Shown piece after piece: positions 48-6,548 of a DNA stretch of 64,000 nucleotides (positions are counted from its first letter, which is position 1; the number at the start of each line of letters is the position of its first letter). The position numbers and the translations under genes are program-made. This DNA comes from Pseudomonadota bacterium. GTDB lineage: Bacteria > Pseudomonadota > Alphaproteobacteria > Puniceispirillales > Marisalimonadaceae. The notes beneath the pieces were generated by a model, which was not told where the DNA came from, did not search any database, and saw nothing but the letters and a program-made list of their open reading frames with translations. The stretch is taken from contig JAOESH010000007.1 of the NCBI GenBank assembly GCA_028382005.1, positions 1 through 64,000 on the forward strand. Direction: 5' to 3'.

Positions 48-1561
48 AAAACAGTTATTATATCACTACTCCTATCTATTACGTAAACGATGTCCCTCAT
101 ATTGGTCATGCCTATACAACTTTGTCATGTGATATTATAGCAAGATTTAAACGTTTAGACGATTTTGATGTTTTTTTCTTAACCGGAACTGATGAACATG
201 GTCAAAAAGTAGAGATGGCAGCTAAAAATAAAAATATTGAACCATTTGATTTTGTAGACGAAGTGTCAAAAAACTTTAAAAATCTTTTAAATTGTATGAA
301 TTTTTCATCTGATGATTTTATAAGAACTACAGAAAAAAGACATATAGACTCTTGTCAAAAAATTTGGAAGAAACTCATTGATAATGGTCATATTTATTTA
401 GGCAAATATTCTGGTTGGTATGCAGTAAGAGACGAAGCTTTTTTTTTAGAATCTGAAATTATTGATGGAAAGGCACCTTCTGGTGCACCAGTTGAATGGG
501 TTGAAGAGCCTTCTTATTTTTTTGATTTGTCAAAATGGCAAAACAAACTACTTTCTTTTTATGAAGAAAATAAAAGTTTTATCTCTCCTGCTTCAAGAAG
601 AAACGAAGTAATTAGCTTCGTTAAAGGAGGATTGAAAGATCTTTCAGTAAGCAGGACAAGTTTTTCATGGGGTGTTAAAGTTCCCAATGACGACAATCAC
701 ATCATGTATGTATGGCTTGATGCTCTTACAAATTATTTGTCAGCTTGTAATTATTCAGAAGGTAAAAATCAAGAATCTTTTGCAAAATTTTGGCCTGCAG
801 ACATTCATATGGTAGGAAAAGACATTATTAGGTTTCATGCTGTTTATTGGCCAGCATTTCTTATGGCGGCTAATTTGCCGCTACCAAAAAAAATTTTTGC
901 ACATGGATGGTGGACTAATGAAGGGAATAAAATATCTAAGTCACTGGGTAACGTTATTAATCCTTTTGAATTAGTAGAAAAATATGGAGTTGATCAAGTC
1001 AGATATTTTTTAATGAGGGAAGTGCCTTTCGGTAATGATGGCGATTTTTCAAATTCTCAACTAATTAATAGAGTCAATAGTGACCTTGCAAATAGTTACG
1101 GAAATCTTTTCCAACGTGTAGTCTCTATGATTTGTAAAAATTGTAATGAAGTAGTACCATTGAAACCAAATAATTATAAAAATGAAGACTTATTTTTAAT
1201 TAACTCAATTAAGAATTCTATGGATGATTACAGGTATTTAATTGACAATCAAAAATTTGACCAGTATCTAAAAAATATTTGGATTACAATTGGTAATGCA
1301 AACAAATATGTAGACGAACAAGCTCCTTGGTCATTAAAGACAAGTGATTTTTCTAGAATGGAAGATGTATTATATAATTTATTAGAAACAATTAGACAAA
1401 TATCTATTTTACTTCAACCTTTTATGCCTGACACATCTAAAACAATTCTTGATCATATCAAAGTTGAACATCAAGACAGACATTTTACGTCAATCAATAA
1501 AATGTATCAAGGTGGTATTACAATTACAAAGCCAACACCAATGTTCCCAAGAATAGTTTAA
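44..1561 (+). CDS. metG: Methionyl-tRNA synthetase
   Basis: Charges tRNA(Met) with methionine in the cytoplasm, an essential step of initiation and elongation. It is a class I aminoacyl-tRNA synthetase: the HIGH signature is at residues 19-22 and the KMSKS-type loop (KISKS) at about 296-300, on either side of the Rossmann fold, followed by the helical anticodon-binding domain. At 505 residues it is the compact form without the C-terminal EMAP-like tRNA-binding domain. The ATG overlaps the stop of the preceding frame (ATGA). It leads a tight run with tatD and a metallo-hydrolase, an arrangement common in alphaproteobacteria. Confidence 0.97.
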   Translation: MKNSYYITTPIYYVNDVPHIGHAYTTLSCDIIARFKRLDDFDVFFLTGTDEHGQKVEMAAKNKNIEPFDFVDEVSKNFKNLLNCMNFSSDDFIRTTEKRHIDSCQKIWKKLIDNGHIYLGKYSGWYAVRDEAFFLESEIIDGKAPSGAPVEWVEEPSYFFDLSKWQNKLLSFYEENKSFISPASRRNEVISFVKGGLKDLSVSRTSFSWGVKVPNDDNHIMYVWLDALTNYLSACNYSEGKNQESFAKFWPADIHMVGKDIIRFHAVYWPAFLMAANLPLPKKIFAHGWWTNEGNKISKSLGNVINPFELVEKYGVDQVRYFLMREVPFGNDGDFSNSQLINRVNSDLANSYGNLFQRVVSMICKNCNEVVPLKPNNYKNEDLFLINSIKNSMDDYRYLIDNQKFDQYLKNIWITIGNANKYVDEQAPWSLKTSDFSRMEDVLYNLLETIRQISILLQPFMPDTSKTILDHIKVEHQDRHFTSINKMYQGGITITKPTPMFPRIV

Positions 1562-1574
1562 AATTAAAAAAAAT

Positions 1575-2357
1575 ATGAATTATTTAATAGACACACATGC
1601 ACATTTAGATTTTCCAGAATTATACTCAAATCTTAGTGAAATAATAGAAAACGCTAAAAATAATAATGTTTTAAAAATTATAACTATCTCAACAAATTTA
1701 AATAAGATTGAAAAAATTATTCAAATTTCAAATGATCATGAAGTCATATATTTTACAGTAGGGGTTCATCCAAACGAAGTTTTAAAAGATGATAATTATG
1801 ATAATTATAGCTTAATATCTAATATTTCTAATAACTTAAAATGTGTTGGAGTAGGAGAGTGTGGCTTAGATTACCACTTTGGTAACGAAGATAAAGAAAA
1901 GCAGAAATTATCATTTATAACTCAAATAAAAGTAGCAAGAGATAATAAGCTTCCATTAATTATTCATTCAAGAGATGCAGATGATGACATGATTAATATA
2001 TTACAAGATGAATATAAAAAAGGACCGTTTAAAGCTATTCTTCATTGTTTTAGTTCAGGTAAAGATTTAGCATTATGTGGTATTGAACTAGATTTTTATA
2101 TTTCTTTTTCTGGAATAGTAACTTTTAAATCTGCAAAGTTAATACAAGAAATTGCATGTATTGTTCCTAAAGATCGAATATTAGTTGAAACAGATTCTCC
2201 TTATTTAGCTCCAACACCTTTTAGAGGAACTATTAATGAACCAAAAAATTGCTTTCATACAGCAAAATTTCTATCCACAATAAGAAATAGTGACTTTAAA
2301 GAATTTACAGGTCAATTATGTATGAACTCTTTAAAGATTTTTGATAAGATATTGTGA
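1575..2357 (+). CDS. tatD: TatD family metal-dependent hydrolase (DNase)
   Basis: TIM-barrel metal-dependent hydrolase; characterised members act as 3'-5' DNases or in RNA quality control. The metal-binding set is complete: the HxH pair near the N-terminus (H8, H10), E95 in GECGLDYH, H131 in HSRDAD, H157 in HCFSSG and D207 in ETDSPYLAP. Length (260) is normal. It starts 13 bases after metG and its TGA overlaps the ATG of the next gene, so the three genes look co-transcribed. The family call is secure; its substrate in this organism is not shown by the sequence. Confidence 0.93.
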   Translation: MNYLIDTHAHLDFPELYSNLSEIIENAKNNNVLKIITISTNLNKIEKIIQISNDHEVIYFTVGVHPNEVLKDDNYDNYSLISNISNNLKCVGVGECGLDYHFGNEDKEKQKLSFITQIKVARDNKLPLIIHSRDADDDMINILQDEYKKGPFKAILHCFSSGKDLALCGIELDFYISFSGIVTFKSAKLIQEIACIVPKDRILVETDSPYLAPTPFRGTINEPKNCFHTAKFLSTIRNSDFKEFTGQLCMNSLKIFDKIL

Positions 2358-3145
2358 TGATAGATAATTTTAAAGTAACAGTCTTAGGTTCAGGCACATC
2401 AGTAGGTATACCTGCTTTAGGTAAGTTAGGCTGGGGTAAATGTGACCCTAACAATCTTAAAAATAAAAGACAAAGATGTTCAATATTAATTCAAAATGAA
2501 AATACGACTATATTAGTAGATGCTGGGCCTGATATTAAAAACCAGTTGATAGGACATAACATTAAAAAAATTGACGCTGTACTCATTACTCATCAACATT
2601 CAGACCATATAGCTGGATTAGATGAATTAAGGCCTTATTATTTTTATAATAGAGAAAAAATTAAGCTGTACACAAATCTAGAAACTGCTAATTTTCTTTT
2701 AAATAGATATGATTATCTATTCAAAAAAAACAAAAATTCACAATCTTATTTTGAGCCACCATTAGAAATCATCAATATAGATTATTTTCAAAACTTAATG
2801 ATTAAAGATATATCTATTCAAACAATTAAGCAACATCACGGCGTTATAGACACACTTGGTTTTATTTTTAACAATAGATTTGCGTACTGCACAGATGTTG
2901 TAGATTTTCCAAAGCAAAGTTTTGATTTTTTATATAACCTTAAGGCTGTTATTATTACTGGTTTAAGAGCTGCTCCTCATACAGCTCACGCTCATTTTGA
3001 TTTAACTTTTAGCTGGATTGCTGAATTAAAGCCTTCTATTGCATATTTAACTCATTTAAGTCCTGAGTCTGATCATGATATTGTAACAAAATTATGTCCT
3101 TTGGGAGTTTATCCAGCCTATGATGGCTTAGTTATTGATATATAA
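2357..3145 (+). CDS. Metallo-beta-lactamase fold hydrolase, PhnP-like phosphodiesterase
   Basis: Soluble metallo-hydrolase of 262 residues. The diagnostic motif THQHSDH lies at about residues 78-84, and there are later metal-ligand candidates (HH near the TIKQHHG segment, D in YCTDVVDF, and a C-terminal H in YLTHLSPES). The N-terminal GSGTSVGIPA is typical of the PhnP/cyclic phosphodiesterase branch found beside tatD in alphaproteobacteria. I prefer the ATG at 2357, which shares its A with the tatD stop (TGATG), over the GTG at 2354. No phosphonate genes are nearby, so a C-P lyase role is not implied. Confidence 0.88.
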   Translation: MIDNFKVTVLGSGTSVGIPALGKLGWGKCDPNNLKNKRQRCSILIQNENTTILVDAGPDIKNQLIGHNIKKIDAVLITHQHSDHIAGLDELRPYYFYNREKIKLYTNLETANFLLNRYDYLFKKNKNSQSYFEPPLEIINIDYFQNLMIKDISIQTIKQHHGVIDTLGFIFNNRFAYCTDVVDFPKQSFDFLYNLKAVIITGLRAAPHTAHAHFDLTFSWIAELKPSIAYLTHLSPESDHDIVTKLCPLGVYPAYDGLVIDI

Positions 3146-3191
3146 GTTACATAATATATATTATGCGACAAAGGTACTTAATTAATTATAA

Positions 3192-4185
3192 TCATTTTGA
3201 ACCTCCCTCAGTATTTTTCTTACCACTGCAACCATATTGTATAAGAAATGATTTGTGGAATTCTATCTTTTATCTTTAAGTCTTTGGACTTTTGGTTGAG
3301 ATGTAAATCATAATTCAAGATTACTTACAGAATTGTCTAATTCATTTCCATTAATGTGATGTAATTTAATTAGGTTAAAAATATCTACCAGGTTTAGTCC
3401 AAACAACATAAATATGTTTTAAAATCATTCCTCTATTATTTAAATGTTTGAGTTTTTGATTTTAAGAATATATTAGCTGATAACCATGATAATTAACTCT
3501 AGACTTAGGCTTGTGTCTGCATTTCATACAATAATCATTATAAGGCTTTCAGAGACCCTAAATTGTCTTCTTACGCTTATTGCTAACCGCCATTCTGTAT
3601 TTCCACATATACATTTTAGTCAACATTAAGCTTTATTCCATAGTATTAATTTATTAGTAGAAAATTTATATTTTTAATCTATTACTACTCTTGGATCAGA
3701 TTTCTTTCCTAACAAGTCACTCCAATTTTCATTTAGTTATAATTTTAAGTTACATCTTTTACATTTAAATTTATTTTCCTTCTATATCTTAATATTTCAT
3801 TAGATCTCTGTATGATGACGCTACATATACATTTTAGTAAAACAAAGTATTTGTTTTGATATGACAAATAACAATAATCAACTATTGTTAAATTATCCAT
3901 GTTAGTTCCAAGAAAATTAATTTTATTTGAAATAACTCTAGATTGTTAAACTGTTCTTATTTTCACATTATTTTTATTATAATGATATTTAAAATTTCAA
4001 TATAACACATTGAAATATTTGGCTATATTTTCTGAAGAAGCACCCTTTTCATACATAGAAACTGCTGAATTTATATTCTTATTAAAGTTTTTAGTTTCAT
4101 TCCAAGACGTATATGCACATTTGGTTGATAATTTGTTAATAAATTCACATAAAATATTATGAAAGTATTTACAAAAATTAAAATA
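3192..4185 (-). pseudogene. Decayed HTH / zinc-ribbon / HNH endonuclease-type gene
   Basis: Reading the minus strand through stops and frameshifts gives a recognisable order of parts. A helix-turn-helix-like stretch (MYEKGASSENIAKYFNV, about 4063-4013) is followed by IR-rich and Cys-pair segments (KCIC, KCKRC, KCICGNTEW, CMKCRH) resembling short zinc ribbons. It ends with an HNH-like tail (HHINGNELDNSVSNLEL, then TSQPKVQRLKDK, then IEFHKSFLIQYG) closing at TGA 3192-3194. The HHxNGxxLDN...NLEL...QPxxQR pattern is typical of phage and homing HNH nucleases. A conserved Trp position after NLEL is a TGA and several other stops are present, so no intact product is possible. The 5' boundary is uncertain. 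The rest of 3146-4217 shows nothing else I can name. Confidence 0.65.
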
Positions 4186-4223
4186 ATATATAAAAATTAC
4201 ATATATTTTAAATAAGGTTGGTT

Positions 4224-4859
4224 ATGACAATATTTACTCCTGCTTCAGACAAACAATTTTTTTCACCATTCGGCCCAACTGTTGGATACTTTAAAATGCC
4301 AAATCTAATGGTTGATAAGCTAAATTCATCAGTAGAGAAAAATTTGAGTGATCACTCTAATAGATTAGTCGGAAAGGTATCAGAAGAATTAAGTTTTGAT
4401 AATGAGTCAAAAAAAATTGCAGGAGATAATTTGATAAATTTTATAACTGAATATCATAGTTATACAAAATTAAGAAATTCAATGAATAAAGAAGATTTAG
4501 ATCCTACAGAAAAATATAAGTTAGAAATTATTTCTGCTTGGTTCGTTAGGCAATATGAAAACGAGTATAATCCTTTGCATATTCATACTGGTTGTACATT
4601 GTCATGTGTAGGGTATTTATCGTTACCTGAAGGAATAGAAAATGAATGGGAAGATGATTACAAAAACCATTATCCAGCAAATGGACATATTAATTTTGCT
4701 CATGGTACTCATGGTTCTCATAGTTGTTCAAACTTTTTAGTTAAGCCTCAAGTAGGTGATTTTTATATTTTTCCTTCTTATTTATCTCATTGTGTATATC
4801 CATTCTATACACCCGGTGAACGTCGTTCATTTAGTATGAATATGATCTTTTCAAAATAA
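4224..4859 (+). CDS. Putative 2OG-Fe(II) oxygenase, phage-type family
   Basis: Predicted 2-oxoglutarate/Fe(II)-dependent oxygenase of 211 residues, matching by pattern the small family found in marine phages and their hosts. Visible are an HxH pair in PLHIHTG (H119, H121), a hydrophobic strand (LSCVGYLSLP), GDFYIFPSYLSH with H189 as the likely distal ligand, and ERRSFSMN supplying the arginine that normally holds 2-oxoglutarate. I start at ATG 4224, with AAGG at 4214-4217 as ribosome binding site; the TTG at 4218 is too close to it. It stands alone next to the decayed endonuclease gene, consistent with acquired phage cargo. Substrate unknown. Confidence 0.75.
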   Translation: MTIFTPASDKQFFSPFGPTVGYFKMPNLMVDKLNSSVEKNLSDHSNRLVGKVSEELSFDNESKKIAGDNLINFITEYHSYTKLRNSMNKEDLDPTEKYKLEIISAWFVRQYENEYNPLHIHTGCTLSCVGYLSLPEGIENEWEDDYKNHYPANGHINFAHGTHGSHSCSNFLVKPQVGDFYIFPSYLSHCVYPFYTPGERRSFSMNMIFSK

Positions 4860-5184
4860 ATAATTAAATATAATCTTTGAAATGTTAAATCAGTTTTACT
4901 TTATTTTTTTATCACTTTGTATCATCAATATATATTAATTAGTTTGAAACGGAATTTTCATTAACGCTGATGATGGAATTTCAAATGGTCCTAATAAGTA
5001 ACCTAATTGTATGTTTTATTGTCTCGTTGCTAATATTTTTTTAGTAAACTTTATTATCTCAAGCATAGAAAACTCAAAATAATTACGAGATCTTTAGTCT
5101 CACTTTATATAAAAATAAATATTACTTTATAAGAACAGTTATTGAATTTATTAAGAAAATGTAATAACTCATTGTTAAATAATA
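4860..5184. other. Gene-poor stretch with a possible decayed frame
   Basis: About 325 bases with no intact gene. On the minus strand a frame with two stops can be read from roughly 5090 to a TAA at 4935-4937. It ends in protein-like text (LGYLLGPFEIPSSALMKIPF) preceded, after a stop, by FEFSMLEIIKFTKKI. I do not recognise the family, and chance cannot be excluded in such AT-rich DNA. No clear promoter, terminator or repeat was seen. Confidence 0.3.
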
Positions 5185-5364
5185 TTAAAACCAAGAAAAA
5201 GGATTCCACCATGAACCACTATCATTTTTAGTTTCTGATGTTGTGGCTTGGCTAGAAGATGAACCAATATAAGCCCAATCTGGAAGAATAGAATTATATG
5301 TTGAACATCCTGAACCTAATGTCATAAATGTAAAAATCAATAAAACACTTACTTTTTTTAACAT
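5185..5364 (-). CDS. Small lipoprotein, 59 residues
   Basis: Short gene on the minus strand with a good ribosome binding site (AAGGAA, about 7 bases before the ATG at 5364). The product has a classic lipoprotein leader: MLKK, a hydrophobic stretch VSVLLIFTFMTL, then lipobox LGSGC with Cys20 as the predicted lipid anchor. The mature part is about 40 residues, Ser/Thr-rich in the middle, ending in the aromatic tail SWWNPFSWF. I do not recognise a family. Small lipoproteins of this sort usually sit in the inner or outer membrane of marine alphaproteobacteria; the role is unknown. It is divergent from the amidohydrolase gene at 5481. Confidence 0.75.
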   Translation of the reverse strand: MLKKVSVLLIFTFMTLGSGCSTYNSILPDWAYIGSSSSQATTSETKNDSGSWWNPFSWF

Positions 5365-5480
5365 TTAATTTCCTTTAAATACTTATAATAATTTATCGTA
5401 TTATATTTATTGAATTTGATAAAATTAAAATCTATTATTTTAATATAAAGTTAAATTAAAATTCTATTTGGAGACTTTTT

Positions 5481-6548
5481 ATGGATATAACGCCTTATGG
5501 TAGCACAGCAGCACGAATTCATGGTGAACCAGGTCATACAGTTCGTCCAGCTACTAAAACAGTTGACGCTCACTGTCACTTACACGTTCAAGAAGCAGCT
5601 GATATTGTTCAAGGCTTGTTTGATCAACATGACGTCCCTGCTTTTAGGCATTCTAATTTAATAACGACTAATCAAAATATTCAACAAATTAAAGATAGGT
5701 TTATGGACTTAACAAATGTTGAGACAAGATTAAAAAAAATGGATTCACAAGGGATTGATATGCAAGTTCTTATTCCAGTTCCTTTCCAACATTACTGTAA
5801 TATTAGATCTGATGCGGCAATTAAAGCTATTGAAACAATCAATAATAAACTTTCTGCAACAGCAAATGCAAGAAAAGATAGATTTGTAGCTTTAGGTCAT
5901 TTGCCAATGCAAAATGGGGACTTAGCAGCTAAAGAAATGAAACGTTGTGTAAATGAACTAGATATTAGAGGCTTTCAAATAATAACATTTCAAGATGGTA
6001 AAGAATTATCACACTCTTCATATGATCCTGTATGGGAAATGGCAACAAAATTAGATGTTCCAATATTCTTGCATCCAAATGGTTATCCAGAAGGTGAAAG
6101 ATTAAAGAATCACTATTTTATAAATATAATTGGTAACCCAATGGATACCACAGTGGCATTGCATCACTTAATTTTTGACGGTACAATGGAAAAATTTCCA
6201 TCTTTAAAAATATTTGTAGCTCATGGTGGTGGTTATCTTCCAGCATATTCAGGAAGAATAGACCATGCATGGGGCGCCAGACCTGATTGCAGAGGACATA
6301 ATTTAAAACATAAACCATCTGACTATTTAAAAAGAATGTATTTTGATACTGTTGTGTTTTCTTTTGATCAACTAAAATACTTAATTGATAAATTTGGTTC
6401 AGATCATATTGTGATGGGAACAGATTATCCATACGACATGGCTGAAGACGACCCAATCGAGCATGTCATTGGAACTAAAGGTCTTTCAAAAAATGATATT
6501 GAAAAGATTACAGGTGCAAATGCATGTTCTCTATTTAAGATTTCATAA
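5481..6548 (+). CDS. Amidohydrolase family protein (ACMSD-like metal-dependent hydrolase)
   Basis: TIM-barrel amidohydrolase of 355 residues resembling the 2-amino-3-carboxymuconate-semialdehyde decarboxylase branch, which carries out non-oxidative decarboxylation or hydrolysis of aromatic-derived acids. Metal-site residues seen are H31-x-H33 in DAHCHLH, H198 in FLHPNGYP, H248 in VAHGGGYLP and D315 in GTDYPYD. A good GGAG ribosome site precedes the ATG. The next gene follows after a single in-frame stop and nine bases. The exact substrate cannot be read from sequence; a role in breakdown of a ring-cleavage product is a reasonable inference. Confidence 0.85.
   Translation: MDITPYGSTAARIHGEPGHTVRPATKTVDAHCHLHVQEAADIVQGLFDQHDVPAFRHSNLITTNQNIQQIKDRFMDLTNVETRLKKMDSQGIDMQVLIPVPFQHYCNIRSDAAIKAIETINNKLSATANARKDRFVALGHLPMQNGDLAAKEMKRCVNELDIRGFQIITFQDGKELSHSSYDPVWEMATKLDVPIFLHPNGYPEGERLKNHYFINIIGNPMDTTVALHHLIFDGTMEKFPSLKIFVAHGGGYLPAYSGRIDHAWGARPDCRGHNLKHKPSDYLKRMYFDTVVFSFDQLKYLIDKFGSDHIVMGTDYPYDMAEDDPIEHVIGTKGLSKNDIEKITGANACSLFKIS

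Follow-up and report, generated by a model that had tools for sequence, protein, structure and literature searches.

Phages are well known to harbor free-standing HNH endonuclease genes in intergenic spaces (PMC2988022). The closest described counterparts of the gene considered here are phage HNH endonucleases of the PF13392 type (phrog_10730, phrog_7545, and phrog_20891), exemplified by Microbacterium phage Roman gp67, Gordonia phage FlyingTortilla gp49, and Pseudanabaena phage Pan2_29. They share with it the HNH core and the motif order GY...EH...GR...HHxNG...DN...NLELW..QP.GQR, whereas the copy described here is dead (stops, a frameshift, and a lost Trp) and resides in a bacterial chromosome. 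An N-terminal helix-turn-helix (HTH) preceding an HNH_3-type nuclease, as in our remnant, is also present in viral proteins encoded in L200 (HTH-Cys-HTH-Cys-HNH) and L215/L216 (HTH-HTH-HNH) of IMG/VR; these, however, are intact, and the likeness that could be shown covers the HTH and HNH parts. A third comparison is offered by phage T4, whose free-standing homing endonucleases (mob genes; PMC2988022) are each encoded by a stand-alone HNH gene in intergenic space, as here, although the present gene is not in a phage genome and homing would be attributed to it by analogy.

The window, i.e., the whole analyzed stretch of 64,000 nt, belongs to an uncultured marine low-GC SAR116 alphaproteobacterium, whose IlvD protein shares 83-86% identity with its counterparts in single-cell and metagenome assemblies of SAR116. 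The draft genome comprises 65 contigs, with a completeness of 81%. The following features were delineated near the left end of the window:

3144-3171, unstranded: chromosomal dif (XerC/XerD dimer-resolution site), the 28-mer AAGTTACATAATATATATTATGCGACAA, left neighbor of the insert
3266-4140, minus strand: pseudogene of an HTH + (Cys-rich) + HNH endonuclease, recognizable remains with an approximate span
3272-3488, minus strand: HNH domain remnant (HGYQLIY...NRGMILKHIYV...GRYF...LHHINGNELDNSVSNLEL, a stop, FTSQPKVQRLKD), from frame-tolerant alignment and shuffles
3545-3850, minus strand: Cys-pair segments spread over several frames, seen in translations; possible zinc ribbons
3955-4068, minus strand: HTH remnant (SAVSMYEKGASSENIAKYFNVLY, a stop, NFKYHYNKNNVKIR), from a small HTH profile and shuffles
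4224-4859, plus strand: intact 2OG-Fe(II) oxygenase (phrog_81, E=5e-28; PF13759, E=5e-18), divergent from the pseudogene
4860-5184, unstranded: AT-rich right part of the insert, no long ORFs, right border approximate

With 1,072 bp, the region 3146-4217 ranks first in length among the stretches of the window that lack an ORF of at least 90 aa; the runner-up, 4860-5480 (621 bp), contains a 59-aa lipoprotein ORF. An earlier sequence-only reading had singled out this region as the only long gene-poor stretch and had described it as a decayed HTH/zinc-ribbon/HNH gene on the minus strand, proposing a frame-tolerant search against phage proteins. That strand was translated in three frames, with stops replaced by X in single-frame scans. 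The pieces joined in order matched phrog_10730 (E=4e-7) and phrog_7545 (E=3e-6) in the PHROG search, and in tblastn they matched annotated phage HNH endonucleases across the frame join (best E=7e-5). The frame-tolerant search was made with an HNH profile of 71 positions that allows frameshifts and comprises 78 domains, at least 73 of them from viral contigs and the remainder from phage records (one phage protein, GAL1, whose annotated ORF does not follow the reading frame of the HNH match, was excluded from the second alignment). The profile scored 145 at minus-strand positions 3488-3272, far above 300 dinucleotide shuffles (mean 28.4, SD 3.5, maximum 42); elsewhere in the window no score exceeded 41.5. 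The similarity to phage HNH endonucleases anticipated by the earlier reading is therefore present.

By its core similarity and motif residues the remnant belongs to the HNH_3 type (PF13392). Conservation extends to the His of EHR and to the HH, N-G, and DN columns, whereas the Glu before HH and the conserved Trp are lost; the latter, which should follow NLEL, is replaced by a TGA at 3310-3308 in the frame-tolerant alignment, as had been noticed in the raw sequence. The 217 bp of the HNH part are interrupted by four in-frame stops, carry a net frameshift, and thus do not constitute the open reading frame of a functional HNH endonuclease; further stops and frame changes, consistent with the several frameshifts claimed earlier, are seen upstream in the translations, and the flanking genes are intact. 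The single-frame Pfam match to HNH_3 (E=0.0028) remains below the curated cut-off (17.7 vs. 24.8 bits), as expected, because the frame is broken; the single-frame scan also matches several PHROG HNH families.

For the upstream part, a profile was made of four hand-picked HTH segments from viral and phage HNH proteins. It scored 25.6 at 4068-3955, a value reached by none of 400 shuffles (mean 13.4, SD 2.0, maximum 21.5); this evidence is good, though not fully independent, since the segments were picked after the reading had been seen. Weak single-frame Pfam matches in the same part (HTH_7, E=0.12; Recombinase, E=0.079) lie in a frame other than that of HNH_3. No homologue of note of the Cys-rich middle was found in the viral and phage searches. 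Of the proposed HTH/zinc-ribbon/HNH make-up the two outer modules were borne out, and the Cys pairs visible between them may plausibly be zinc ribbons. The minus-strand reading itself is real. Together with the tblastn and PHROG matches, the HNH and HTH profile scores strongly support, at the level of sequence, the assignment of 3266-4140 to a decayed gene for a modular HNH endonuclease of phage type. No Rfam family matched the window at gathering thresholds.

PF13392 was detected at E<=0.001 in none of the 39 other genomes of the genus; a DNA-level search of 60 relatives revealed no intact copy, the dif segment being the only widely conserved part, and the joined reading used as a protein query in the relatives matched solely the window itself. 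The alignment-based viral scan, on the other hand, yielded 261 viral relatives of the domain with variable Cys- or HTH-bearing N-termini, including one with the order HTH-Cys-HTH-Cys-HNH, while the joined C-terminal part taken as a single protein gave no confirmed match in the viral scan. Since the domain was not found in the other genomes of the genus and hundreds of viral contigs carry its relatives, a phage origin is the best reading. As HNH_3 domains were also present in bacterial genomes outside the genus in a control scan, the donor may alternatively have been such a bacterium.

The dif site is where a bacterium resolves joined copies of its chromosome, and phages and other elements that use Xer recombination are known. 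The site at 3144-3171 is the best of the window (37.4 bits, the next independent site having 9.6 bits) and has the properties of a chromosomal dif, a 28-bp motif occurring once per chromosome: 35 of 61 genomes contain one exact or near copy, never two, and a reversed-pattern control gave none. The final bases of the stop codon of an MBL-fold gene fall within it, and the site adjoins the same gene wherever the neighborhood could be read, its position being conserved across the genus. Near-identical letters have been published for dif of Bartonella quintana and Magnetospirillum magneticum (PMC2731167). A dif would be expected at the maximum of the cumulative GC skew; the skew of the window is mostly negative from approximately 7 kb, with only 3 kb of contig upstream of dif in a draft genome. 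Among the tyrosine recombinases of this genome, XerC and XerD were not distinguished from one another.

Within approximately 20 bp of dif begins an insert of about 1.9 kb, extending from about 3190 to some point before 5184 and comprising the HNH pseudogene (minus strand), the oxygenase gene (plus strand), and approximately 300 bp without long ORFs. A small lipoprotein gene (5185-5364) is thereby located 2.0 kb past dif, whereas in relatives from the genus the next readable gene, which encodes a lipoprotein, an amidohydrolase, a DctP-type protein, or IlvD, is found about 100-600 bp past dif. Among the genus relatives in which the gene after dif is readable (other genera have different neighbors), the insert is missing in nearly all. 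The clear exception to the short spacing is G021 (locus L059), which has an unrelated 954-aa ORF at about 140-3000 past dif; this ORF is without relatives in the analyzed set and represents a second case of extra DNA beside dif. Compared with its counterparts in several relatives, the lipoprotein of the window is extended at the C-terminus. Gene erosion is also seen in the neighborhood: the dif-adjacent amidohydrolase is reduced to short fragments in G006 (L056), G015 (L060), and G009 (L062) and is absent from some relatives, e.g., G002, G004, and G007.

The phage-type character of the neighboring oxygenase, suggested earlier, was upheld by its membership in phrog_81. The tree places nine sequences from viral contigs as its sister group (support 97/91), and both are nested in a larger clade to which copies from cellular genomes of the genus also belong. 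Its viral counterparts are flanked by scaffold-like and capsid-like genes (sequences judged by eye), and in three cellular relatives the gene occupies one conserved locus elsewhere in the genome. Being found in both viral contigs and cellular loci, the oxygenase appears to move between phages and hosts; and because genomes of the genus carry it at other loci, the window gene could have come from a cellular copy. Its pairwise dN/dS is 0.18-0.21 against two other copies from the genus, a value not specific to the window lineage. In two viral contigs, L107 (~2600-4589) and L109 (~3656-5645), there are apparently, as judged by eye, three oxygenase-type genes in a row that adjoin capsid-region genes; the first two oxygenase-type genes make up a cluster of their own.

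We consider it very probable that a phage-derived free-standing HNH endonuclease gene was transferred with or near the oxygenase gene to the position beside dif and has since decayed. Phage DNA would have entered the spacer just past dif by horizontal transfer, a route that we infer, bringing in the nuclease gene together with or near the phage-type 2OG-Fe(II) oxygenase; with no selection on the nuclease, stops and frameshifts would have accumulated in it while the oxygenase remained intact. In the ancestral enzyme, the HTH and zinc modules would have bound DNA and the HNH site nicked or cut it, the cut target then being repaired by copying the nuclease gene into it, so that the intact enzyme presumably acted in homing.

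That the two genes arrived at once is a guess, unproven because they are not neighbors in the viral data: no HNH motif was found near the oxygenase in 80 oxygenase-bearing viral loci, nor in the cellular loci. Two independent arrivals into a permissive spacer would account for this, as well as for the variable content of the dif-adjacent spacer among relatives, and such a history has a real, if somewhat less than even, chance of being correct; it has to contend with the presence of both genes in one insert that is absent from nearly all comparable relatives. The earlier suggestion of a dead phage element holds for the nuclease gene, which is dead and phage-type; for the pair, there is no sign that the two once formed one mobile element, and "element" is better described as an insert of about 1.9 kb beside dif, missing from nearly all comparable relatives.

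The proximity of the insert to dif, and the existence of Xer-using phages and elements, would fit a decayed integrative element of the IMEX type integrated at dif by the host XerC/XerD. Such an element has dif-like sites at both ends, whereas one dif alone was found here: no second dif-like site was detected in the insert or at its far end, the best candidates being within the shuffle range, and Xer integration is therefore unsupported. Homology to the relatives, moreover, seems to extend approximately 17 bp beyond dif (the border is AT-rich and not sharp), which is unexpected from an Xer insertion inside dif unless these bases were borne by the element, and we regard this origin as unlikely. 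The broader proposal that phage-derived genes repeatedly land in the SAR116 dif-adjacent spacer, where the HNH endonuclease itself would have driven the insertion, is in our estimate highly unlikely. An intact gene broken by assembly or sequencing errors, conceivable in a draft of this completeness, is barely credible given the density of stops in the HNH part, the additional lesions upstream, and the intact flanking genes.

The reading of raw sequence alone correctly picked out a frameshifted phage-type nuclease, to which the present analysis adds the dif neighbor, the finding that nearly all comparable relatives are free of the insert, and the viral clade to which the oxygenase is sister. 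The pseudogene is real and of a known kind, and its place is interesting, not unusual. The locus is a clear example of a pair of phage-type genes beside dif, one of them dead and the other retained, in an uncultured marine SAR116 member; apart from this, it represents the expected debris of gene flow between phages and hosts, the ordinary remains of horizontal transfer.
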